A DNA stretch of 64,000 nt. It comes from Prorocentrum cordatum. Lineage: Eukaryota; Sar; Dinophyceae; Prorocentrales; Prorocentraceae. The notes below the pieces were generated by a model. The model had not been told where the DNA came from. It searched no databases and worked only from the letters and a program-made list of their open reading frames with translations. The stretch spans positions 32,501 through 96,500 of the forward strand of contig CAUYUJ010015028.1 in the NCBI GenBank assembly GCA_963575745.1, given 5' to 3'. Each line of letters starts with the position of its first letter. The first letter of the stretch is position 1. Both the position numbers and the translations under genes were made by a program. Positions 10,100 through 62,939 of this stretch are shown piece by piece.

Positions 10100-10342
10100 C
10101 ATGTCTAGGCCTCCCAGGTGGGGTCGGAGTGGACGGGGTCGGAGGATCGCGCCGCATCGCCGATGCATCGCCGATGCATCGACGATGCATCGACGATGCA
10201 TCGGCGATGCGGAGCCCGATTTCTCCACGCCGACGTCGCCGATGCATCGCCGATGCATCGCCAGTGTATCACCGATGCGTCGCCGATGCGGCGCGATCCC
10301 CCGACCCCATCTACTCGGACCCCATCTAGGAGGCCTCTACCA
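10100..10342. mobile_element. Hairpin element with CGATGCATCG tandem loop
   Basis: The left arm (about 10100-10165: AGGCCTCCCAGGTGGGGTCG, GGGTCGGAGGATCGCGCCGC) is the imperfect reverse complement of the right arm (about 10275-10342: GCGGCGCGATCCCCCGACCC, CATCTAGGAGGCCT). The loop is a tandem of the self-complementary word GATGCATCG, with about ten copies interrupted once. It will extrude strongly as a cruciform. No coding sense. Confidence 0.6.
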
Positions 10343-10482: not shown

Positions 10483-10647
10483 GAATCGGGCACGTCCCTC
10501 TACCGGAGGAATATTCAAACATGTTTAAACATAGTATGGGGGCGATTGTTGTTGTTGCTGTTGTATCGTTTTGCTATGTTTGAGCATTTGTTTGACCATG
10601 TTGTATATTTCGTCAAATCCGCCTCTAGGAACTCATGCCCGACCTAA
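10483..10647. mobile_element. Family A hairpin element (TIR GTCGGGCAYGTCCC), copy 1
   Basis: The left end, TCGGGCACGTCCCTCTACCG, and the right end, ATCCGCCTCTAGG..ATGCCCGACC, are imperfect inverted repeats. The interior is AT-rich (ATTCAAACATG, TTGAGCATTTGTTTGACCAT). The flanks carry a near-duplication, GGGTAGGGCT (10473-10482) and GGGTAGGGGCT (10648-10658), suggesting a 9-11 bp target-site duplication. Confidence 0.65.
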
Positions 10648-12260: not shown

Positions 12261-12386
12261 GTCGGGCATATCCCTCTACAGGAGGAGTATTCAAACATAG
12301 TCAAAATAGTCTGGCGACGTTTTTTAGTATTGCTGAGTATTTGTTTGACTATCATCAATTGTTTCATTCAAACTCCGCGCCCGACC
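12261..12386. mobile_element. Family A hairpin element, copy 2 (right arm shortened)
   Basis: GTCGGGCATATCCCTCTACA, then GGAGGAGTATTCAAACATAG on the left and TCCGCGCCCGACCTAAG on the right. The right arm lacks the CTGTAGGGGGACATG part found in other copies, so it is internally deleted. The interior GAGTATTTGTTTGACTAT matches the family consensus. Confidence 0.6.
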
Positions 12387-12489: not shown

Positions 12490-12573
12490 TCGTTGCGCGA
12501 CGTCTTTATTCTCGGCGACACAGGGCGCAACCCAAGGCGCCACCGATAGGAGACGGTTTTATTCTCGGCCGCC
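12490..12573. repeat. Minisatellite (~54-bp unit), part left of the LINE
   Basis: About one and a half units of the array, with TTTATTCTCGGCGACAC, GGGCGCAACCCAAGGCGCC and GGAGACGGTTTTATTCTCGG. The same unit continues at 18870. The LINE therefore split a pre-existing array. Confidence 0.75.
12562..12573. repeat. Target-site duplication, left copy (TTCTCGGCCGCC)
   Basis: These 12 bp directly precede the first base of the spliced leader, and the same 12 bp at 18870-18881 directly follow the element. After the right copy the minisatellite unit resumes (GAGGGC), as expected for one interrupted unit. Because the target is itself a repeat, chance identity with another unit cannot be fully excluded. 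Confidence 0.75.
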
Positions 12574-12594
12574 GCCGTAGCCATTTTGGCTCAA
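12574..12594 (+). other. Spliced-leader relic at the 5' end of the LINE
   Basis: GCCGTAGCCATTTTGGCTCAA: the first base plus the 20-nt core CCGTAGCCATTTTGGCTCAA, matching 21 of the 22 dinoflagellate spliced-leader positions, with A in place of the final G at 12595. It is followed by AATC and not by a GT donor, so it is not a spliced-leader RNA gene. It marks the 5' cap end of the mRNA that was reverse transcribed. Confidence 0.9.
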
Positions 12595-12729
12595 AATCAT
12601 GCCTCCCCCCGAGGAGGACACGGATACCGCTAGTCCGCGGCTCGCCCCCAGTCTTCTTGCTGGCGCCGCTGCGCTCAGCAAACTCACCCTACTGTGTCTG
12701 CTGACCGTACTCGTTTGGGAGCTGACGCC

Positions 12730-13866
12730 ATGGCGGAGCATTGGAAGTGCAGCTGCGGTGAGTTCAATACCAAGGGCCGACGGACTTGCAACAACTGTGG
12801 AGATGCCAAGCCACCGCCTCGTCCATGGAACGGCGGGCCGAAAGGGGCCGATTTCTGGATGCAGCGCAATGGGCAGCAAGGAGGATGGAAGCCTTGGACC
12901 AAGCAGGGAGGTGCCCCGCAGGCACAGCGACAGCAGCCCGCCGCAGGAGCGACCCTTTCGCCCAGCGATGTCAAGGAGTGGTCCGAGCTTCCTGCAGACG
13001 TCTACGAGAAGACGAAGAGCGCCTTGTCCCATTCTTCCAGGCAGAAGGTTGAGTACGCCAGGCGGGCTGCTGCTGCTGGGCTGCTTGGCGCTGCTGGTCG
13101 AGAAGCTCCTCAGGCCGTCGACAAAGCCGCCAGGGCCCTCCAGAACGCGAAGGACCGCTTGGCAAGCAACAAGGACAAGGCTTTCAAGCTGCTGGAGGCG
13201 GTGTCAACCTCAGAGGCCGGGGTGGCTAAGTTGGAGAAGGAGCTCGAGTCTGCGAAGCAGGACGCGGCGAAGCTGCACGGTGCATGCGCGTCCGCAGCTG
13301 GAGCGTTCACGGCGCAGCAGCTCAAGGCCAAGATCGGGGAGATCCCCACGGAGGGCATCTCGCTTGCCGACTTCCTCAAGTCCCTCCAGGCTGCGGTCGA
13401 CGAGCTTGACAGCGCTAGCAGGCCGACCGAGCCACAGCAGCACGAGGCGCATGCAGCTCAAGTGCCAGTCCCCCCCCCTGAAGGAGCAGCAGCTGGAGGA
13501 GAAGCGGCCGCCGCTGAGGGCGGCCCTTCGCAAGGGACCTCGCCCGACGAGGCTTTCGAAGCTTTTTGGCTGGCGATGATCCTGGCGGCCTGCTGGGTTC
13601 TTGTCAGGACGAGGGGGGGCGCAAGCGGCTTGCCGAGGCCATGGGGACCATCCGCACTGCACAGCGATCCAAGACGGCAGGCGGGTAGCTCTACCAAGAG
13701 GCGGTGGTGGACGGCGCTCGCCATCAATGCCAACGCCTACAGCGGGTTCGAGGCGCTGCTCGACGAGAACCAGGTGCGCAACGCAGACATGATTGCGGTG
13801 CAGGAGACCCACCTTTCCGACTTTCGGCGCGCAGAGGTGACCGACAAGTTCAAGAAGCAGGGCTGA
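12730..13866 (+). CDS. LINE polyprotein, N-terminal part: RanBP2-like zinc finger, coiled coil, start of endonuclease
   Basis: The start is the ATG in the strong context GACGCCATGG; the frame is open slightly further upstream but has no earlier ATG. Residues 5-23 read W-x-C-x-C-x3-N-x6-C-x2-C (WKCSCGEF.., RTCNNCG), a RanBP2-type zinc finger with one residue fewer between the first Cys pair; such fingers bind RNA or ubiquitin. Residues about 125-215 are Ala/Lys/Glu-rich and helical (KLEKELESAKQDAAKL), probably a coiled coil for ORF1-like multimerisation on RNA. The last 45 residues already belong to the endonuclease (INANAYSG, MIAVQETHL with the metal-binding Glu at 13804-13806). The segment ends at an in-frame TGA (13864-13866) and resumes in the same frame, so it is one broken polyprotein, not a separate gene. 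Confidence 0.75.
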   Translation: MAEHWKCSCGEFNTKGRRTCNNCGDAKPPPRPWNGGPKGADFWMQRNGQQGGWKPWTKQGGAPQAQRQQPAAGATLSPSDVKEWSELPADVYEKTKSALSHSSRQKVEYARRAAAAGLLGAAGREAPQAVDKAARALQNAKDRLASNKDKAFKLLEAVSTSEAGVAKLEKELESAKQDAAKLHGACASAAGAFTAQQLKAKIGEIPTEGISLADFLKSLQAAVDELDSASRPTEPQQHEAHAAQVPVPPPEGAAAGGEAAAAEGGPSQGTSPDEAFEAFWLAMILAACWVLVRTRGGASGLPRPWGPSALHSDPRRQAGSSTKRRWWTALAINANAYSGFEALLDENQVRNADMIAVQETHLSDFRRAEVTDKFKKQG

Positions 13867-14688
13867 CGTGCCCTCGCGTGCCCCGCAGTGGGCACGGGCC
13901 CAGGCCTTCACGGCCACGGTGGGCTACTGCAGCTGGCGCCGCGCGCGCACGGCCTCGGCGCATTCGAGATGAAGAGCGGGTTTGAGCTCGTCCCTGGCAG
14001 GGCGTCGGTCGCCCACTTCGCTGGCCTCGTGCTTGGCGGAGTTGCCTGGTTCAACGTCTACCTCAAGGACAGCGAGGGCATTTCCGACTTCAACTACCAG
14101 GTGCTGCAGGCCGTCTTCCGCGCGGCGAAGCAGATCGCCAAGCCCATCATCATTGGTGGCGACTTCAACCTGGAGCCGCAGGAGTTGGCGGCGTCAGGCT
14201 TTCTCAGCGCACTCAAACTCAAGGTGGTCGCCCCCGCCGAAGGCACCTGCCGACCCGGGGGGCGCATCGTCGATTACTGGGCCATCAGCGCGACCTTCGG
14301 CGTAGCAGAGGCCAAGGTGCTGCAAGGCTGGAACCTGGCTCCGCACTTCCTTGTCCAGCTTGGGGTTGACGGCAGCATCTTCGCCATGAAGATGCAGAAC
14401 ATGGAGATCCCCAAGCGCCTGCCCTGTCCGCTGCCCGCCGCGTGCTGCAGCAGGGACCGCTCAGCTCACTGGGGGGCCACTCGGCAGGCCATGCAGGCCA
14501 CGAGGTCGCTTTCCTCGCGCTGGCAGCTGTTCGTCTACCAGGCCGAGTGGAACATCATCGACGCCGTGGGCTTGGCACGCGAGCACGACGACTACGCAGG
14601 CCGCGGCGCCAGGCCCCGCATCAAGATGGCCAAGGTTGCGGTACCCAGCCCGCCACGCATTCCCAAGTGCTCCAAGGCCGCCTCCTGA
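13867..14688 (+). CDS. LINE polyprotein, middle part: AP-type endonuclease domain
   Basis: Continues in the same frame after the TGA at 13864. The exonuclease/endonuclease/phosphatase fold is recognised by GGDFNLEP (Asp at 14161, Asn at 14167), RIVDYWAIS and a terminal APHFLV His (14344-14346), with the catalytic Glu in the preceding segment. This enzyme nicks target DNA so that the exposed 3' end primes reverse transcription. The last ~90 residues lead towards the RT. It ends at a second in-frame TGA (14686-14688). It has no credible start codon of its own and would only be made by read-through or in an intact relative. Confidence 0.75.
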   Translation, partial: RALACPAVGTGPGLHGHGGLLQLAPRAHGLGAFEMKSGFELVPGRASVAHFAGLVLGGVAWFNVYLKDSEGISDFNYQVLQAVFRAAKQIAKPIIIGGDFNLEPQELAASGFLSALKLKVVAPAEGTCRPGGRIVDYWAISATFGVAEAKVLQGWNLAPHFLVQLGVDGSIFAMKMQNMEIPKRLPCPLPAACCSRDRSAHWGATRQAMQATRSLSSRWQLFVYQAEWNIIDAVGLAREHDDYAGRGARPRIKMAKVAVPSPPRIPKCSKAAS

Positions 14689-17600
14689 CACAAGAAGGTG
14701 GCGATAGCGATCAAGGGTTGCGCGCAGTTCGACATTCCCCCCCGTCGGCTTCGGGCGCTGCGGGTCCTCAGCAAGATGACGGGCGATGACTTGGTTCAGA
14801 CCACCGACCATCGCAAGCTGAATACGATCACCATCTTCGCTACGTTGGCGGAGGCCACGCCCTTCCTGGACATTGGCACGCTGCAGGGCATCGCCGCTCA
14901 CGTCGACGCGGCTGCCGACAAGTTGGTCCAGAAGGAGGCCGACGCGAGGCAGGCGAGCTACAACGACTGGGTGATCGACCACCACACTAGAGGCACGGGG
15001 GCCCTCCACGCCCTCACCAGACCTCCACAAGGCTGGGCTCCTCGCCTTACCGGGGCGTCCCCCGATGGCTCTCCTCCCACCCTCCAGGAGACGGTCGCTG
15101 CCTTGGTGAAGGAATGGTTTGGGTGTTGGGGCCTGGGGGGCCCCACCTCCTCCTGCGTCAGCTCGCAGGAGGCCCGCATCAACTGGCCCGACGGGCTTGG
15201 CGAGAGGCCGCCCAGGCCCACAGCCGAGGAGGTCGGGAAGGTTATCGCCAGCTTCAAGGAGGCCACGGGTGCGTCCTTCGACTCGCTCAGGCCCAGGGAG
15301 CTGCAGCTAATGGACGACGAAGGCATCGAGGCCATGATCGGCTTGTTTGACGCGATAGAGCAGAGGTGCGAGTGGCCTGGCTTCGTCACCAAGATGGCCT
15401 TCATCCCCAAGACGGACCAAGGACTTCGCGCAATCGCGCTGCTGGGGGCTCTCGCGCGCATCCACGGAAGATTGCGACGGCCAGTCGCGAAGCAGCGGGA
15501 ACGGGAGCACGACAGGCCATACTGGTGGGCCAGCGCGGGCAAGAGCTGCGACCGTGCCGTGTGGCAGCAGCAGGCCAGGGCCGAGTGGGTCCACATGGTG
15601 GGCGCGCTCTACGAACAGCATGACTGGGCCTCGGCGTCGATCCCCCTCGACCTCTGGAAGGCTTTCGAGCAGATGCTGCACAGCCAGCTCCTGAAGGCCT
15701 GCCAGGCCCACAATTCCCCGCTCTGGCTGGCCAAGCTGCAGATTAACCTGTACGGGATGCCCCGCGTGGTCTGCCTGGAAGGCTGTTGCTCGGATGAGCT
15801 GGCGGTGATGCAAACGGCGCTGGCAGGCGACGCGTTCGCCACGACGTTCATGAAGGTGATGCTCCCCACGCCGTTGGATACGATGGTGATCAAGCACCAC
15901 GCGGTGGTTCCCGCAGTGGTCGTGGACGACCTGGTGATGCAGCGCTGGGGCGGCACCAGCAAAGTTGAGAAGGACCTGATCGCCAGTGCCAAGCTCCTGG
16001 TCAAGGAGCTCAGCAAGGTGAAGCTCAAGGCCGCTACGAAGAAGTCCAGGATCCTCGCTAGCAGCGCTCAGCTGGGGAAGGGACTCCAGGCCAAACGCAT
16101 CAAGGCTTGCGGTGCTGTTGCAGCGGCGAGCGTGCGCAACCTTGGAGTCGACCACGCTGAAGGAGGGCGGTGTGCCAGCGCGGTGCGCAAGCTGCGCATG
16201 GCCAACGCCAAGGCGAGGCTCCCTCGCATCAAACGACTGCTGGGGCATCGGCGAGGCCGAACAGCCGCGGCTAAGGTCGCCTTCGCAGGCCTCATGCCCA
16301 GCATAATGTACGGCGTCTCGTGCACTGGGATGTCGGACAGCGAGCTCAAGCACACCAGGGCGCTGGTCGTCGAGGCAATCGAGCCAAGGCCGCAGGGCAA
16401 GTCCACAACTGGCTGCCTCGCCTTCGGCGGGCCGGGCGAGATCGACCCGATGTACGGCGAAACCTTGGCGCCTGCCTGCACCCTTGCACGTGCGCGCTGG
16501 GAAGGCTGGGTTCCCGCAGGAGTGCTCAAGTCGACCTCCGACGGCTTCGCGAGACACGTTCGCAGCTGGAGTGGGGTCCGAGGGCCTATCTCTGCGGCAG
16601 TCTCGACGCTCAGGCGGGTCGGCTACGACTTGCGCAGCTTCGACCAGTGGCTCAGGCACAGCACCTGCGAGACCATTGACATCACAAGACCTTCCCCCTG
16701 GTACATCAAGCAGGTGCTGCGCAAGGACGTGCAGGCCTGGCAGCTACGACAGCTGGCGGCGGACACACGCGAGGGCATCACCAACGGCGCCTTCGCCCCA
16801 CAGGTGCGCAGGTGGCTCAGCACAGGCAAAGCCTCCACCTTCGAGGGCCGCAGGTGGAAGCCCCTGGACGACAAGCAGCGGGGCTACGTGAGGTCTCTGC
16901 TGGTGCACGGCGAGTGGCTCAACCAGCGAAGGTTTGAGGCAGCGCCGAGGCCCGCTCCTGCACCGCACTGTGAGCCACACCCGCACTCCCTGGGCACCCT
17001 GTGGCACCGCCACCTGGAGCTCTGCGACAGCTGGCCCAGCTTCGGGCTGCCTGAGGAGCTGGAGAAGTTTAAGCAGTTCGAGTCCAGCATCACGATCAAA
17101 ACTCTGTTCGGGCGGCTCCTGCTGCCCGAGCCCAGCCACGACTGGCGCCCCCCGCAGGGCGACCTGCCTCAGGGGCCGCGGTGGCTCAAAGGGGACGCCG
17201 ACCCGTTCATCAACACCGAGCTGTTCGCCGACGGCTGTTGCTTCGAGGCTGGCACTTCGCTGGCTATGGCAGGATGTGCAGTAGTCGAGTTGCCGCCTGG
17301 GCCAGAAGGAGAAGACCCAGGCAAGGGATCGTGCGTCAAGGCCATGGGCGCCCTTGTGCCTTGGCCAATCCAGTCAATCGACGGCGCAGAGCTGCTCGCG
17401 CTCTACGCGATCCCCAGGCACTCGCTTCCTCCCACCACGGCCAACTTTGACGCCGAGTATGTGGGCAAAGGCTTGATGGAGAGAGGGCGCGAGGCCACTA
17501 CCTCGCATAAGTCCGCCTGGGGAGAGATCTGGCGCAGGATTTGGCACGCGCTGGGCGACTTCGGCGACCTCAGCAGCGACGGCCTCGCGGTGCGGAAGGT

Positions 17601-18648
17601 CAAGGGCCACGCGACTTTCAAGGGGGTGGACGAGGGCAAGATCACTCTCCGCAGTCGGCGGGGCAACCACGAAGCTGACCGAGCGGCGAAGTTCGTCACG
17701 GAACGCTTCAGGGCGCCGCCGCAGGCGCGCGAGGCCAGGGGGACAAGGGCGCTTACCTTGGACGGTGCGGTCTTCTGGGTATCGCAGGCAGGCGCCGAAG
17801 CTGCTGACCTCAGGACCGACTTTCGTGACAAGTACAGGGGGCCCGAGTCCAAGGACCCCAGGCTCTACATCACCAAGCACGAGCTGGTCAATAGCAAGGG
17901 CGGAGCAGAGGGCGTTCAGGCGCTCCACTGTCTGCGCTGCTCGCGGTCGGCCTTCACTGACATCTCGACCAAGAACCTCCCAAGGCAGAGCTGCACGCCG
18001 AAGGCCTTCGCTCCCGACGCCTACACCAGTGGGGGCAAGACGCGGCCGAGCGCCTCGGCCCTGGCGCACGCTGGAGCCGCCGCGGTGGCGGTCGCAGCAG
18101 CCCGCCGTTTCGTTGAGGACGAGAGCCAGCCCACCCATGCCAGCGGTGAGGCATGCAGCAGCGAGGCGAGCTCCTCCTTCGTTCAGCATCGTGGCGAAAG
18201 TCAGATTCTGGGATCCGTCGGTGACGGTGACCTGCGTGCTGGCGAGGGCGGTCAGCAACGTGGCGAAAGCCAGATTCTGGGATCCGTCGGTGACGGCGAC
18301 CTGCGTGCTGACGAGGAGCAGCCGTCGGCGGGCTCCTCTCCCTTTCAGCATCGTGGCGCGAGCCAGAGTCTGGGATCCGTCGGTGACGGTGACCTGCGTG
18401 CTGACGAGGAGCCGCCGACGGCAGGCGACGGGGGAGCCAAGGCCCAGCCTGCGGCGCCGCCGCCCAGCGGCTCTGGCGCGCTCGACGTGGACGGAGGCGG
18501 CCACGACCTGCGCACGTACTTCGGGCACCGCGTCTGCCTGAAGCGCCTGAAGGGCAAGCGCAGCACAGGGGACTCGGCCTGGCCTGTGCCCCAGCGCTCA
18601 AGCCCAGCGCCCATGCGGAGCGCAGGAGGAAGGCCGAGAAGATCATGA
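14689..18648 (+). CDS. LINE polyprotein, C-terminal part: reverse transcriptase and RNase H
   Basis: Same frame, 1319 codons. Counting from 14698 as residue 1: FIPKTDQGLRAIALL (about 235-249) is RT motif 2; LDLWKAFEQ with Asp 318 is motif A; AGDAFATTFM is around motif B; VVVDDLVMQ with Asp 410-411 is the catalytic motif C (VVDD in place of the usual FADD or YADD). RNase H follows with a complete set: Asp 845 (LFADG), Glu 898 (GAELLAL), Asp 918 (NFDAEY), His 971 (VKGHAT) and Asp 994 (NHEADRAAK). Then comes a Cys-rich knuckle, HCLRCSRSAF, and three copies of a 17-residue unit, RGESQILGSVGDGDLRA (DNA at 18190, 18259 and 18352). No frameshift anywhere. The protein would copy its own RNA, and possibly host mRNAs, into DNA in the nucleus. 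The domain call is very secure; activity of this copy is unlikely because of the upstream TGAs. Confidence 0.88.
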   Translation, partial: HKKVAIAIKGCAQFDIPPRRLRALRVLSKMTGDDLVQTTDHRKLNTITIFATLAEATPFLDIGTLQGIAAHVDAAADKLVQKEADARQASYNDWVIDHHTRGTGALHALTRPPQGWAPRLTGASPDGSPPTLQETVAALVKEWFGCWGLGGPTSSCVSSQEARINWPDGLGERPPRPTAEEVGKVIASFKEATGASFDSLRPRELQLMDDEGIEAMIGLFDAIEQRCEWPGFVTKMAFIPKTDQGLRAIALLGALARIHGRLRRPVAKQREREHDRPYWWASAGKSCDRAVWQQQARAEWVHMVGALYEQHDWASASIPLDLWKAFEQMLHSQLLKACQAHNSPLWLAKLQINLYGMPRVVCLEGCCSDELAVMQTALAGDAFATTFMKVMLPTPLDTMVIKHHAVVPAVVVDDLVMQRWGGTSKVEKDLIASAKLLVKELSKVKLKAATKKSRILASSAQLGKGLQAKRIKACGAVAAASVRNLGVDHAEGGRCASAVRKLRMANAKARLPRIKRLLGHRRGRTAAAKVAFAGLMPSIMYGVSCTGMSDSELKHTRALVVEAIEPRPQGKSTTGCLAFGGPGEIDPMYGETLAPACTLARARWEGWVPAGVLKSTSDGFARHVRSWSGVRGPISAAVSTLRRVGYDLRSFDQWLRHSTCETIDITRPSPWYIKQVLRKDVQAWQLRQLAADTREGITNGAFAPQVRRWLSTGKASTFEGRRWKPLDDKQRGYVRSLLVHGEWLNQRRFEAAPRPAPAPHCEPHPHSLGTLWHRHLELCDSWPSFGLPEELEKFKQFESSITIKTLFGRLLLPEPSHDWRPPQGDLPQGPRWLKGDADPFINTELFADGCCFEAGTSLAMAGCAVVELPPGPEGEDPGKGSCVKAMGALVPWPIQSIDGAELLALYAIPRHSLPPTTANFDAEYVGKGLMERGREATTSHKSAWGEIWRRIWHALGDFGDLSSDGLAVRKVKGHATFKGVDEGKITLRSRRGNHEADRAAKFVTERFRAPPQAREARGTRALTLDGAVFWVSQAGAEAADLRTDFRDKYRGPESKDPRLYITKHELVNSKGGAEGVQALHCLRCSRSAFTDISTKNLPRQSCTPKAFAPDAYTSGGKTRPSASALAHAGAAAVAVAAARRFVEDESQPTHASGEACSSEASSSFVQHRGESQILGSVGDGDLRAGEGGQQRGESQILGSVGDGDLRADEEQPSAGSSPFQHRGASQSLGSVGDGDLRADEEPPTAGDGGAKAQPAAPPPSGSGALDVDGGGHDLRTYFGHRVCLKRLKGKRSTGDSAWPVPQRSSPAPMRSAGGRPRRS
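18187..18411 (+). repeat. Three in-frame 51-bp peptide-coding repeats in the LINE C-terminus
   Basis: The units at about 18190, 18259 and 18352 encode RGESQILGSVGDGDLRA twice and RGASQSLGSVGDGDLRA once. Their DNA is nearly identical, including CAGATTCTGGGATCCGTCGG. The spacing (69 and 93 bp) is a multiple of three, so the frame is kept. Function unknown; it looks like a recent expansion in a disordered tail. Confidence 0.7.
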
Positions 18649-18869
18649 GGGGAGTGGCTCCGTCTGGGAGGCCACTCGCGTGACGGCGTCGCGGCGGGCT
18701 CCACGTCTACTGAGCTGCCGCCCGCGACGCAGCTGCGTCGCCGCCGCTCTGCCCTGTCGAGTTGCCGCCGTTTGCGGCGACTCCAGAGGCGGCCAACAGG
18801 GCTGCCGTGCGGCCTGCGACGCAGGAGCTGGACGTGCGCGCTGCGCGCACTCAGGCTGCTAAGGAAAAC
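18649..18869 (+). other. 3' untranslated region of the LINE
   Basis: From the TGA at 18646-18648 to the duplicated target. It contains no repeat or frame of note. It ends GCTGCTAAGGAAAAC, with only a short A-rich stretch and no long poly(A) tail and no AATAAA signal. Confidence 0.6.
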
Positions 18870-19325
18870 TTCTCGGCCGCCGAGGGCACAACCTATGGCT
18901 CAACCGACAGGAGACGGCTTTATTCTCAGCGGCTGAGGGCGCAACCTATGGCGCAACCAATTGGAGGCGGTTTTATTCTCGGCCGCAGAGGGCGCAACCT
19001 ACGGCGCAACCAGTAGGAGACGGTTTTATTATTGGCGGCCGAGGTCACAACCTATGCAGCAACCGCTCGGAGACTGTGTTATTCGTGGCGGCCGAGGGCG
19101 CAACCGATGGCGCAACCTATAGGAAACGGTCTTGTCATTGGCCGCTGAGGGCGCAGCCCATGGCGCAACCATAGGAGACGGTTTAGGAAGCAACCTATGG
19201 GCCAACCAACGAGAGACGGCTTTATTCTCGGCCGCAGAGGGCACATCTTATGGCGCAGTCAATTGGAGATGGTTTGATTCTCGGCGGCCGAAAGTTCAAC
19301 TATGGTGCAAGCTATAGGTCACGGC
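18870..19325. repeat. Minisatellite (~54-bp unit) right of the LINE, with right target duplication
   Basis: About eight units with the consensus blocks GGAGACGGTTTTATTCTCGG, CCGCCGAGGGCGCAACC and TATGGCGCAACC. The first 12 bp, TTCTCGGCCGCC (18870-18881), are the right target-site duplication. Units differ by substitutions and small indels, so the array is old. Confidence 0.75.
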
Positions 19326-27905: not shown

Positions 27906-28013
27906 TGGACCCAGGACGCGGTATCCACAACTGTTTATGGTTGGGTCTTTCGCCAGGCTGATTTTTATTTGTCTTCCAACATCCGCCTGCAGGGGGACAT
28001 GCCCGACCTAAGG

Positions 28014-38340: not shown

Positions 38341-39038
38341 ACAAGTTATCAGAATCACTACGGCTCTCTGCTCTCTTTCTCCCTCTTGGCGATGCGCGGC
38401 GGTGCTCTCGCCCCCCCACCGCCTCCGCGTCTTCAAAAGGCGGTGTGCCATCAGTGTTCCAATGGGAACGGTCTCGCTTATTCAAAACGGTGCTCCCGCT
38501 GCAGCGTTGGCCCACTTCCATGACCAGCGCTTTGCTCCCGTCGTTCAGCATGGCGCTCTCGCCACATCGCGGGCCACATTTTTGGATCCGATTCCTTCCC
38601 CGTCGATGTTGCCGCTCCCCTCCTTCCCCCCTCTCAGCCTTCGCCTCGTCCTGCTCCCGCTTCTCCTGCTCCTGCTGCTGCTGCTTCTCCTCCTCCGTCT
38701 TCCTCATTCTCCATTTCCTCTTGTTCAGCATCATCCCTCTCCACCCTGCTCTGACCTCCCCCTTCTCCCGGTCCTCCTGCTCCTCGCACTCCTCCTGCTG
38801 CTAGTGCTGCTCCTCTTCCTCCGCCCCCGTGCTCCTCCTCCCGTTCACCCTCGGGCCTATCCGCCACCTCTGATCTCGCACCATGCGACGGGCCATGGGA
38901 GCCAGCCGTCGGCGGATAGAGAGAGCATCCTCGCCGTGTGATGGGGTGAGTGGTGGGGCCGGAGGCCGGGTGTGGTGCGAGCGCAACCGGCTTGTCCACA
39001 TCTTTTTCCGCCCCCTGTTGCTGCTCCTCCTCCTCCTC
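38340..39038. other. Spacer upstream of the cellulase-like retrocopy
   Basis: CT-rich with a CTC/CTG block at about 38635-38700 and CTCCTC at about 38755-38850. Frames on both strands are low-complexity (Pro/Leu/Ser or Glu/Arg). It ends in the CTC array into which the retrocopy inserted. Confidence 0.5.
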
Positions 39039-39055
39039 CTCATCCTCCTCCAGCC
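39039..39055. repeat. Target-site duplication, left copy, of the cellulase-like retrocopy
   Basis: CTCATCCTCCTCCAGCC lies directly before the spliced leader. The same 17 bp occur at 40910-40926, after the 3' UTR. Identity runs three bases further (TCC), which is microhomology with the start of the leader. The CAT and CAG interruptions make it more specific than plain CTC repeats. Confidence 0.75.
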
Positions 39056-39077
39056 TCCGTAGCCATTTTGGCTCAAG
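39056..39077 (+). other. Complete 22-nt spliced-leader relic
   Basis: All 22 positions of the dinoflagellate spliced leader: T, then CCGTAGCCATTTTGGCTCAA, then G. The next bases are TCGTCTT, with no GT donor, so it is not an SL RNA gene. It marks the 5' end of the mRNA from which the gene was copied. Confidence 0.95.
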
Positions 39078-39140
39078 TCGTCTTGGCACAAGCTCAAGCC
39101 TCTGCAGCCCTCGCGATCGCGGCGAACCGGCCGCCCTCCA

Positions 39141-39170
39141 CGGCCCCCCTCCGCTTCCGCCCCGCCGCAG
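39141..39170 (+). promoter_or_regulatory. Candidate trans-splice acceptor before the cellulase-like CDS
   Basis: A pyrimidine-rich run (CCCCCCTCCGCTTCCGCCCC) ends in GCCGCAG at 39170, four bases before the ATG. A new spliced leader could be added here or at an AG nearer the relic. No promoter motif was recognised. Confidence 0.35.
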
Positions 39171-39174
39171 CGCG

Positions 39175-40602
39175 ATGGCCGCGACCTTCTCCCAGCGCAT
39201 CGTGCCGTCAGCGCTGGCCCTCGCTCTCGGCGGCGTGGGCTCGAGCGGCTTCGCGGTCTCGGAGCTGTACGGGAAGAACTACGAGGACCCGATGGTTGGC
39301 CTCTGGTGTGTGGGCCTGACCGCCAGCGGCTTCGAGCAGGGCGCGGGCGTTCAGGCGCAGTTCAGCGAGCCCGACCAGGAAGACATCGAGCACTTCCACG
39401 GGCAGGGGGCCAACTGCTTCCGGGTGCCCATCACTTGGAATCGCCTACAGTCCAGCCTCGGCAGCAACGAGCTTGACCCTGTGTCGGAGTTTGTCGAGAC
39501 CATCAGGTACATTACGGAGGACCTCGAGGACTACGCCATTGTCGTGCCCTTCAGCGGTTCGGCCAACGGTGGCCTAAGGTACGAAGAGCAGGAGGCCACC
39601 ATGGACGATTTCGTCAACCTTTGGACGGCGATCTCCAAGGAATTCGCCCAGAACGACCGCGTCATCTTCGAGCTGTTCGACTACCCCGAGTATGGTTGTC
39701 ACAATGGGGATTGCGGCGACGGCAACACGGGCTTCTTCGGTTGGGGTGACGACACGAACGGCGTGTATGTCCAGGCCTGGCTGGAGTGGTGCCAGGGAGC
39801 GGTCGACGCCATCCGCGCGCAGGGCGCTGACAACTACGTCCTCGTGCCCGGGCTGAAGAAGTCCCTCGCCAGGGACTGGCTGGGCGCGCAGTGGTGGGGC
39901 GAGTCCCTGGACGGCTACAGCAGGGCTGGCAACCTGAGGCTGTTTGCGCTCCAGGACCCCTCCAACAGGACCGCCTACAGCATGCGCCAGTACTTCGACT
40001 TAGGGCAGATTGGTCTGAGCCCCGGCTGCGAGGGCCACGACGCGCACGTGAACGGGGGCTTGTCCGCGGACGAGGCGCTCACCTACACCATCGCCATTGC
40101 ACAGAAATACAACAAGAAGCTGTGGATGACCGAGGTGCTTTCCATTCCCGACGCGGATGCCACCACAGCGGAGAGGGAGGAGTGCGAGAGCAAGCTGGGG
40201 GACTACCTGGCGGAAATGGCGGACTCGGGGGTCTTCCTCGGCTACCAGGTGTGGCAGTTTGGGTGCAAGGACTGCGCAAAGGGCGTGGACCTGTCCCCCG
40301 AGAGCATCGACGAGAACTACAACAACTTCGACTGGTACAACCTCGAGAAGTACGGAATCACCAGCACAAGCACCTCGCGTACCCAGACCACGGTCACCAG
40401 GACCTCCGTCACGAGCACCACGGCCACCACCTCCACCTGCACGGGCTGCACGCACACGCAGACCAGCACCACGGGGACCACGATAACGGCCACCACGGCG
40501 ACGTCGACCACTACGCCGGAGGACCTGAATGGCGCGCCGTCCGCCCTCCCCAGCGCGGGCTTGGCTGCCGCGGTGGTTCTCGCCCAGCTGCTGGCGTGCT
40601 GA
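39175..40602 (+). CDS. Secreted GH5 cellulase-like protein with altered catalytic site
   Basis: 475 residues, no introns. The start is the only in-frame ATG after the spliced leader, in the context AGCGATGG. Residues about 8-28 are a hydrophobic signal peptide (LALALGGVGSSGF). The body has GH5 order: GANCFRVPITWNRLQ (strand 2), RVIFELF at strand 4, then GADNYVLVPG and KKLWMTEV with Glu 320 as candidate nucleophile. The acid/base position is unusual: where the family has Asn-Glu-Pro, this protein reads Asp169-Tyr170-Pro171, and the usual His of the HQY motif is Arg 271 (MRQYFD). Hydrolysis is therefore doubtful. Residues about 390-450 are a Thr/Ser linker, probably O-glycosylated, and the tail SAGLAAAVVLAQLLAC is hydrophobic, like a GPI-anchor signal. 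It likely acts at the cellulosic thecal plates or in the secretory path, perhaps as a glucan-binding protein. The fold assignment rests on motifs only. Confidence 0.8.
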   Translation: MAATFSQRIVPSALALALGGVGSSGFAVSELYGKNYEDPMVGLWCVGLTASGFEQGAGVQAQFSEPDQEDIEHFHGQGANCFRVPITWNRLQSSLGSNELDPVSEFVETIRYITEDLEDYAIVVPFSGSANGGLRYEEQEATMDDFVNLWTAISKEFAQNDRVIFELFDYPEYGCHNGDCGDGNTGFFGWGDDTNGVYVQAWLEWCQGAVDAIRAQGADNYVLVPGLKKSLARDWLGAQWWGESLDGYSRAGNLRLFALQDPSNRTAYSMRQYFDLGQIGLSPGCEGHDAHVNGGLSADEALTYTIAIAQKYNKKLWMTEVLSIPDADATTAEREECESKLGDYLAEMADSGVFLGYQVWQFGCKDCAKGVDLSPESIDENYNNFDWYNLEKYGITSTSTSRTQTTVTRTSVTSTTATTSTCTGCTHTQTSTTGTTITATTATSTTTPEDLNGAPSALPSAGLAAAVVLAQLLAC

Positions 40603-40909
40603 GTGTGGATATCGGGGGAAGCGAGAGGGTGGGAGGGGGGTGGCTCGAGTCTTGGGAGGAGGCAGCCAGCCTGGCCCTCGCAGCGAGCGCGCGCGGCCAG
40701 CGTATCGCGGAAACCCCGGCCTCTCCAGGAAGAGGCCCCGGGTCAACCGAGCCCGGGCCCCGCACTTCTTCTGCCCGGCGTGCTGCCCCCACGGGCCGGG
40801 TGGCTTCCACATGCGAGGCCTCCCCCGCAGGGCCGCGCTCCGCGCTCACACGCAGCGCCCCAGCGGCGGACTCGGATACTGGCGACCACCGTCCTGGCCC
40901 ACTAGCTGA
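40603..40909 (+). other. 3' untranslated region of the cellulase-like retrocopy
   Basis: From the TGA to the right target duplication. Non-repetitive, GC-rich, with no poly(A) and no AATAAA. A plus-strand frame continues through it without any recognisable domain. Confidence 0.5.
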
Positions 40910-41012
40910 CTCATCCTCCTCCAGCCTCCTCCTCCTCCTCCTCCTCCTCATCCTCACCCTCATCCTCATCCTCATCCTCATCCTCCCCCCTTCCTCCTCC
41001 CCCTCCTCCTCA
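40910..41012. repeat. Right target duplication followed by CTC/CTCATC microsatellite
   Basis: CTCATCCTCCTCCAGCC (40910-40926) repeats 39039-39055. It continues into (CTC)n, (CTCATC)n and CCTCCTCC, the other half of the array split by the retrocopy. Confidence 0.75.
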
Positions 41013-50510: not shown

Positions 50511-50630
50511 TCGGGCCCGTCCCTCTACAGGGGGAAAATTCAAAGATGGTCAACAAAAATAGTCTGGGGACGATTTTTCCACTGTGTTTTGGGCAATTGT
50601 TGGTGCATGTTTGGACTATTGCGACGACCT
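50511..50630. mobile_element. Family A hairpin element, left half only
   Basis: GTCGGGCCCGTCCCTCTACA, GGGGGAAAATTCAAAGATGG and AGTCTGGGGACGATTTTTCC match the family. The right end (CCTGTAGGGGGACATGCCCG) is missing, replaced near 50630 by GCGACGACCTTACGG. A truncated copy. Confidence 0.55.
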
Positions 50631-56949: not shown

Positions 56950-57298
56950 GTTAAGTCGGGCACGTCCCTCTACAGGAGGAATAGTAAAACATTGGATTGA
57001 GGCAGTAGTCGGGTGACGATTCCTTGAGCAGGTTTGACCACTTTGGAGCCTGTTTGTTGGCTATGTTCTATTTTTCGTTCAGAATCCGCCTGTAGGGGGA
57101 CACTCAGGAGGGGAAAAATCACACAGACACAATCAATCGTCGATCCCCCCAGAAAATATAGGAAAATATGGGAAACGATGGGAAGTGGGGGGGAAGACAA
57201 GCACCCATGAACTATGGGACGATATAAGGGAATCCTGTTATTTGTGTGTATTTCTGTGTGTGTGTCCCAGGGCCCCCTTCAGACACGCCCGACCTAAG
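56950..57298. mobile_element. Family A hairpin element interrupted by a family B element
   Basis: The left end, AAGTCGGGCACGTCCCTCTA then CAGGAGGAATAG, runs to AATCCGCCTGTAGGGGGAC. It is then interrupted by the family B insertion and resumes at 57287 with GCCCGACCTAAGC. Removing the insertion and one ACAC copy restores a normal family A end, which dates family B activity after family A. Confidence 0.75.
57104..57282. mobile_element. Family B element, copy 2, nested in family A, with 4-bp TSD
   Basis: Starts TCAGGAGGGGAAAAATCACA and ends CCAGGGCCCCCTTCAG. ACAC flanks it exactly (57100-57103 and 57283-57286). At 179 bp it is slightly longer than the other copies. Confidence 0.8.
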
Positions 57299-62436: not shown

Positions 62437-62590
62437 ATGTCGGGCGTGTCCCTCCACAGGAGGAACATTCAAACATAGTAAAAAATAGTCTGGGGACTAT
62501 TTGTTGTACTTTTGCATATGTCTGGATATTTGTCGCGCATGTTTCATTGTTCCTCCAGACTCCGCCTGTAGGGGGACATGCCCGACCTGA
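62437..62590. mobile_element. Family A hairpin element, last copy
   Basis: Left end GTCGGGCGTGTCCCTCCACA then GGAGGAACATTCAAACATAG; right end ACTCCGCCTGTAGGGGGACA then TGCCCGACC. The interior AAAAAATAGTCTGGGGACTA and ATGTCTGGATATTTGTCG are close to the consensus. Best-preserved single copy; no clear target duplication. Confidence 0.7.
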
Positions 62591-62939
62591 CCATGGTTTC
62601 GGAGAGATGTGGGGCGCGCAACTTTCGTTCGCGATCTTGTCCCCGCCTCCAGACCTCTCTGACGGAGATTGGCGAGAGGCACCGCCGCACCTCTCGCACG
62701 CCGTGTCACACCAGGCAAGTGACAGGTGAGGGTCGGCGGGCTCCGTCTTCCCCCTCTCCACCCCTCACTCGTGCTCCCGCTGCTGCTGACCCTGCTGCCC
62801 CTGCATCTCCTCCTCTTCCCCCCGCTCCCAACGTTTAGACGCTTCGCATATCCCCAAACCTCCATCCAGTTACGATGCCCAGGCGAGTTGACGACGACGA
62901 CGATGTCAACGACGAGTCAACGATAGAGGTTTCGTTTGG

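Follow-up and report, generated by a model that had tools for sequence, protein, structure and literature searches.

A spliced-leader-tagged GH5-like retrocopy in a CTC microsatellite of Prorocentrum cordatum and its probable insertion by LINE-type enzymes

The window, a stretch of 64,000 nucleotides from contig C14179 of Prorocentrum cordatum, carries a retrocopy of a GH5-like, leader-tagged mRNA within a split CTC microsatellite. The parent gene, the loss of its interruptions in the copy, the leader joined at the parent's acceptor and both edges of the insertion can be read directly. We propose that a fully processed mRNA of the interrupted GH5-like gene at C10791:49520-78626, trans-spliced with the 22-nt leader, would have undergone reverse transcription through to the extreme 5' end, and that the cDNA would have entered the array with a target duplication of 16–20 bp. 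The enzymes would presumably be those of LINEs, working by target-primed reverse transcription; many LINEs of this genome carry the same leader and insert into arrays of this type. We hold this whole explanation, with LINE enzymes as its inferred part, to be correct with a probability of roughly 0.8. The genome searched comprised 4.128 Gb in 21,875 contigs. The features of the insertion are as follows.

39020..39055, forward strand: CTC-type trinucleotide array, left part of the target (sequence; tract scan)
39039..39055, forward strand: target-site duplication, left copy, 17 bp, continuing to 39058 through the leader's TCC (sequence)
39056..39077, forward strand: spliced-leader relic, 22 nt, complete (sequence; consensus in PMC6050394)
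39078..39092, forward strand: 15 bases that follow the leader directly and double as the 3' part of what looks like an older, decayed leader relic that the parent already has (11/15 matches here, 16/21 for the full relic of the parent) (sequence)
39078..39174, forward strand: 5' UTR inherited from the parent mRNA, 1/97 bases differing
39175..40602, forward strand: intact GH5-like CDS, 475 aa, with a Thr-rich tail and a hydrophobic C-terminus (ORF; PF00150)
40603..40909, forward strand: 3' UTR inherited from the parent, ending in GCCCACTAGCTGA, without an A tail (parent alignment)
40910..40926, forward strand: target-site duplication, right copy, to 40929 with the overlap (sequence)
40910..41011, forward strand: split CTC array, right part (sequence)

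The 5' edge of the insert is formed by a complete 22-nt dinoflagellate spliced leader, TCCGTAGCCATTTTGGCTCAAG, at 39056-39077 (the consensus is that given in PMC6050394). The leader 21-mer occurs once exactly in the window and once more with one mismatch (at 12575); when the window was shuffled 100 times, matches with up to three mismatches averaged 0.00. As the first base of the leader (T, at position D) also fits the target repeat, 21 leader bases are unambiguous. The insert between the repeats measures 1,854 bp (39056-40909), and the 17-mer CTCATCCTCCTCCAGCC that flanks it occurs exactly at only two places in the window, 39039-39055 and 40910-40926. The match extends to 20 bases (39039-39058 and 40910-40929) because the leader itself starts with TCC, and the first C of the repeat is common to the parent sequence (one base), so that the duplication amounts to 16–20 bp. 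Since CTC arrays are common in the window, chance recurrence of the 17-mer was tested at the 1,896 interrupted CTC/GAG-type positions found there on both strands, with recurrence sought 150–8,000 bp downstream. A 17-mer recurred at 46 of these positions and a 20-mer at 30; at positions whose left edge is not an array the numbers drop to 8 and 2, respectively, all of them belonging to the CTCATCCTCCTCCAGCC repeat itself, and no other of the 1,896 interrupted array positions of the window showed such a pair at an array edge. The preliminary description had reported all 22 leader positions and a 17-bp repeat at both edges, splitting a CTC array, and both statements withstood these tests. Of the marks expected of a processed retrogene, the target-site duplication is present at both edges, and a poly(A) remnant is absent at the 3' edge, where the junction reads GCTGA/CTCATCC.

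The parent was identified by a DNA search of the genome with the insert (39056-40909), for which 60 matches were listed and 40 of 47 candidates scored. At C10791:49520-78626, 12 colinear blocks of 93–100% identity are spread over 29 kb; apart from the insert itself, this locus stands out among the matches listed, where the weaker relatives were C12370 (77%) and C15155 (65–73%) and the remainder were short. The parent is interrupted 11 times and the copy joins the blocks, as is expected of a processed retrogene whose parent has introns. Eight of the interruptions allow an AG acceptor, one, in the 3' UTR, has a border that is not sharply placed, and two are inverted-repeat elements in the UTRs, which may be introners or later insertions. 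Relatives of these two introner- or MITE-like elements lie in the window at 10104-10335, 10487-10550, 12263-12325, 27980-28011, 50512-50579, 56957-57021 and 62441-62591, and introner-rich introns are reported in Prorocentrum cordatum in PMC10666404.

At the 5' junction the parent reads ...CCCCGCAG/TCGTCTTGG, compared with leader/TCGTCTTGG in the copy; in a longer reading it is CCACCATCGTGCCCCGCAG/TCGTCTTGGCACAAG against leader/TCGTCTTGGCACAAG. As the leader joins at the exact base of the parent AG, this AG, read from genomic sequence rather than from cDNA, fits a trans-splice acceptor, and the copy has the junction that is expected of a DinoSL-relic gene. The parent itself is without an intact leader at its 5' edge. 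At the 3' junction, the parent has GGCCCACGAGCTGAC/AACGAGC where the copy has GGCCCACTAGCTGA/CTCATCC, and the alignment stops at 40909/40910, although 200 bp of flank was offered on each side. Finding the parent and comparing the 3' ends had been suggested as a check on the processed retrocopy proposed in the preliminary description, and the outcome was the predicted one: similarity ends at the far duplication. The retrocopy is supported by the 11-times-interrupted parent, by the acceptor match and by this 3' end. A leader RNA gene at 39056 was also considered and rejected, because a spliced UTR follows the leader and the parent exists.

The acceptor suggested at 39170 for the addition of a new leader fared less well, being merely an AG within parent exon sequence, whereas the parent's leader acceptor corresponds to 39077/39078. 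The acceptor is more likely to be the AG within the relic, at 39061-39062, or the one that ends it, at 39076-39077. If the copy is transcribed, the CTC tract and the AG inside the relic could act together as an acceptor for a new leader, and splicing at 39061-39062 would give a transcript that starts with leader + CCATTTTGGCTCAAG + TCGTCTTGG.

The CDS of the copy (39175-40602) consists of 475 codons, is intron-less and has zero internal stops, and its product matches PF00150 with an E value of 2.5e-21, in agreement with the intact cellulase-like reading frame described earlier. The copy belongs by sequence to the same family as the GH5 cellulases (PF00150) and shares their conserved nucleophile region, where E320 is invariant in 10 of 10 aligned GH5-like sequences. 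We take NEP to be the acid/base motif of GH5, the catalytic positions being assigned from GH5 motifs and the alignment. Unlike in those cellulases, this motif is replaced by DYP, NYP, RYP or EKP in all 10 aligned sequences, namely the copy (39682-39684) and the homologues P0002-P0004 and P0006-P0011; the acid/base position holds Y in nine of them and K in one. The two catalytic glutamates of a GH5 cellulase are not both present at the positions set by these motifs and the alignment. It is possible, judging from the residues, that the NEP-less GH5-like proteins are pseudoenzymes or unusual catalysts.

Between copy and parent, the 5' UTR shows 1 difference in 97 positions, the CDS 18 in 1,419 and the 3' UTR 18 in 304, the last count coming partly from one poorly aligning stretch (the last two blocks alone give 9 of 266), and there are two in-frame indels in the CDS. 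With dS 0.039 and dN 0.005, the retrocopy is fairly recent. Its youth had been proposed from the completeness of the leader, an argument that is weak when taken alone; the conclusion stands on the CDS differences and the dS value. Unconstrained drift over half the synonymous distance would be expected to yield approximately 21 amino-acid-changing differences (0.0195 x 1,089 sites), and only 5.5 were seen in both lineages together, which argues for selection on the copy, barring gene conversion or unequal rates. The copy has kept its open reading frame, and its protein is probably under selection. The one near-identical protein in the protein database, P0002 from JGI contigs, has the parent residue at the four changed GH5 positions (138, 197, 277 and 307), three of which are V197, G277 and A307 in the copy, and does not have the additional Asn of the copy. 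Within the Thr-rich tail, P0002 agrees with the copy at residue 449 and in one two-residue indel, which we read as changes on the parent side in this strain. As its residues are mostly of the parent type, P0002 speaks mainly for the parent and not for the copy.

The parent appears to carry an older relic of its own. The sequence CCGCAGTCGTCTTGGCACAAG, which contains the parent's acceptor, matches the leader at 16 of 21 positions, with the leader's own AG serving as the acceptor, and is preceded by a degenerate GTC/CAT array. In the window and the longer loci, which together gave 684,642 further 21-mers, a score of at least 16/21 is reached by 12 that are not exact leaders; seven of the 12 sit stacked on an exact leader, and two score exactly 16. 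On these grounds the parent appears to be an earlier retrocopy, one that contains introns today, and since it seems to carry an old relic, the copy is probably at least a second round. The parent would probably have passed through the same cycle earlier. Exact stacked leader relics number 1,202 in the genome. A variant leader may be the origin of the inner relics that have GGCAC in place of GGCTC just past the leader or acceptor, as at L005, L016, L052 and the parent (L095). L020 has a further leader-like relic (19/21) just past its far duplication, approximately 5.9 kb downstream of the leader.

The genome contains 14,218 exact leader 21-mers (7,201 and 7,017 by strand) and none of the reversed pattern. 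The reverse-strand counts were used genome-wide because each site appears there once in the rows listed. Of these 7,017 leaders, 2,133 follow a CTC array (CTCCTCCTCCT) within 12 bases and 786 follow a GGA array (GGAGGAGGAGG), while the mirror pattern, a leader followed by CTC (the only motif covered on that side), was found at 0 of 14,218 sites on both strands. We read 82 exact leader sites, comprising 81 of the 100 places listed (19 were left out) and the window's own. In the 30 bases before the leader, 32 sites had a CTC array, 14 a GAG array, 10 another simple repeat and 26 none. CTC/GAG arrays thus precede 46 of 82 leaders against a background of 3.8% (1,412 of 37,376 sampled positions), and any simple repeat precedes 56 of 82 against 6.35%; the same array test applied just after the leader as a downstream control gave 0 of 82. 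This excess over background is what is expected of microsatellite-targeted insertion, and the 26 sites at no simple repeat, together with those at AT, CA and CAT arrays, do not fit a strict CTC target. Among other dinoflagellates, Polarella is described as TTG-rich (PMC7245778). The array orientation seems to be family-specific (8 CTC, 0 GAG and 4 neither among 12 members of one motif family, and GAG in 3 of 3 of another), which is suggestive only, as the motifs were chosen after looking. On contig C39, the flanks of three leader sites (L054, L055 and L056), spaced at approximately 3 and 5 kb, are near-identical; these sites may be leader RNA genes and were kept in the 82-site counts as misses. 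Two stacked leader-tagged insertions are present at L006:1500-9939, where the 3' array of the first is the CTC array before the second.

A selection of the longer ORFs behind the leader at the first 20 loci was compared with Pfam (E up to 0.01). RVT_1 and/or Exo_endo_phos matches were obtained at 10 of the 20 loci, six of them above the curated cut-off and some with RNase H; the ORFs submitted from nine loci gave no RVT_1 or endonuclease match, and L005 gave a weak RNase H match alone. Several leader-headed inserts are LINEs with an endonuclease and a reverse transcriptase. L004, which lies between CTC arrays, has an open frame of 1,869 codons behind the leader and shares 91% identity with L015 across 5.7 kb; the best matches of its reverse transcriptase are the solved R2 and LINE-1 enzymes. 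Several tagged elements have arrays of one orientation at their two widely separated ends, and the tagged LINEs in these arrays carry full-length 5' ends. A second leader-headed element lies in the window itself:

12562..12574, forward strand: 13-bp repeat, left copy, within a 53-bp minisatellite unit, flanking the 12575 element
12575..18869, forward strand: second leader-headed insertion (1 mismatch), LINE-like, with in-frame stops and a weak endonuclease-type domain match below the curated cut-off
18870..18882, forward strand: 13-bp repeat, right copy, flanking the 12575 element

The pieces of this element that were searched gave no reverse-transcriptase match.

At leader sites with non-repetitive flanks, duplications of 12–24 bp were found beside A-rich ends at six of nine: 15 bp after A8 (L005), 13 bp after A11T (L084), 15–18 bp after A6C (L089), 19 bp after a CAAA repeat (L094), 23–24 bp with 2–3 mismatches (L092) and 12–13 bp with one mismatch (L020). 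No duplication was found within about 8 kb at L090, L091 and L093. Both edges of such insertions had been described as rarely recoverable, which these six sites contradict. Placed outside the nine-site count were L009 (AT repeat), L002 (purine-rich flank), L085 (GTC-type array), L010 (20-bp minisatellite on both sides) and the 12575 element (13-bp repeat inside a minisatellite). An upstream control for chance duplications, at loci with 1.4–1.5 kb upstream (L005 and L020), gave 5–6 bases at best. The leader-tagged insert of approximately 3.2 kb at L010:1500-4760 is flanked by its 20-bp minisatellite, which also precedes a 19/21 leader-like sequence. Before the far array, L081 (CTC) ends in A6 and L083 (GGA) in GAAA; the cellulase copy and the array-inserted LINEs L004, L006 and L007 are without an A tail.

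LINE insertion by target-primed reverse transcription leaves duplications of variable length, roughly 7–20 bp, and the lengths found here vary likewise (16–20 bp at the copy, 12–24 bp at the six sites). Together with the A-rich ends and the EEP/RVT_1 elements, these duplications fit LINE-type target-primed insertion and not LTR integration, and the evidence points to a LINE-type machinery that prefers microsatellites. We infer that the array preference reflects endonuclease targeting rather than better survival or breakage at arrays. Against the LINE explanation stands the tail-less copy, whereas the six duplications with non-repetitive flanks adjoin A-rich ends.

This tail-less end at 40909 is also what would be expected if the cDNA had been captured during break repair at a fragile microsatellite, without a LINE endonuclease, and arrays had become enriched by breakage or survival. 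Tagged sites at AT, CA, CAT and minisatellite arrays and the one shared base at the 3' junction agree with such a course; yet the duplication at the copy is a clean one of 16–20 bp, those at six of nine other sites lie beside A-rich ends, and LINEs themselves, with full-length 5' ends, use the same arrays. We consider break repair unlikely. The same retrocopy could have been made by LTR-retrotransposon enzymes (Ty1/copia), which would allow a 3' end without a tail. LTR integrases leave short, fixed duplications of 4–6 bp, and an LTR origin is disfavoured by the variable 12–24 bp found here beside A-rich ends; every tagged element that allowed typing is, moreover, an EEP/RVT_1 LINE. This makes an LTR origin very unlikely, although it is the one proposed for dinoflagellate retrogenes in section 7 of PMC6050394 (Song 2018), which leaves the choice between LTR and non-LTR undecided, leaning to LTR.

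That the arrays grew beside the leader only after insertion, the flanking repeats then being no target duplication, is suggested by the density of microsatellites in the window and by their general instability. The repeat, however, is an interrupted 17-mer of which no other such pair exists at array edges in the window, arrays of the same orientation stand at both distant ends of several tagged elements, and CTC follows none of the 14,218 leaders, all of which makes later growth highly improbable. A duplication of an intron-less gene at the DNA level, next to a chance leader-like sequence, has practically no probability left: no point in its favour was found, and it was rejected once the interrupted parent had come to light, for in the copy the parent's blocks are joined and the leader stands first, at the acceptor. 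The reading we prefer thus remains retroposition of the leader-tagged mRNA by LINE-type enzymes.

Mammalian L1-type LINEs make processed retrogenes, and the present copy resembles these in deriving from a spliced mRNA with a full-length 5' end; the LINE-like duplications and, at the sampled sites, the A-rich ends are also alike. It differs in the trans-spliced leader at the 5' end, in the strong CTC/GGA preference and in having no A tail. R1-clade and other LINEs target repeats or microsatellites, and share with the elements described here the endonuclease, the reverse transcriptase and the entry into a tandem repeat; here the preference is strong and not absolute, and the sampled copies carry the spliced leader. 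The SLACS/CZAR elements of trypanosomes, which insert into leader RNA genes, are likewise LINE-type elements linked to a spliced leader, whereas in Prorocentrum the inserted RNA carries the leader and the target is a microsatellite. DinoSL-relic retrogenes were reportedly described by Slamovits and Keeling in 2008. In such genes, according to PMC6050394 and PMC12014239, a leader relic upstream marks a reintegrated mRNA, and relics can stack. Our copy is a relic-marked gene of this kind, and its 15-nt inner relic fits splicing at an AG inside an older leader; what differs is that the parent, both edges, the duplication and the target type were identified for one copy and sampled genome-wide. 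Titles and abstract openings, with subscription journals thinly covered, contained no description of leader-tagged dinoflagellate insertions with target duplications at microsatellites, which may even so already be published.

As the leader relics fix the 5' edge, the duplications, tails and targets become readable over thousands of insertions, and the question of LTR or LINE origin for dinoflagellate retrogenes becomes directly testable. In a broader and tentative view, to which we give somewhat less than even odds, gene recycling in this organism may be a LINE-run cycle aimed at CTC/GGA microsatellites, in which the leader would mark mRNAs as full-length substrates, copies in CTC orientation would receive a ready acceptor, and introns would be regained before renewed retroposition. 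If this is true, CTC-orientation copies would not be dead on arrival, since the pyrimidine array and the relic AG would provide a ready-made trans-splice acceptor, and the cellulase parent and its copy would exemplify intron regain followed by retroposition once more. Copies may owe both their splice acceptor and their survival to the preference for pyrimidine arrays, which may also bear on the dispersed duplicates that, according to section 5 of PMC10666404, make up 64.8% of Prorocentrum cordatum genes.
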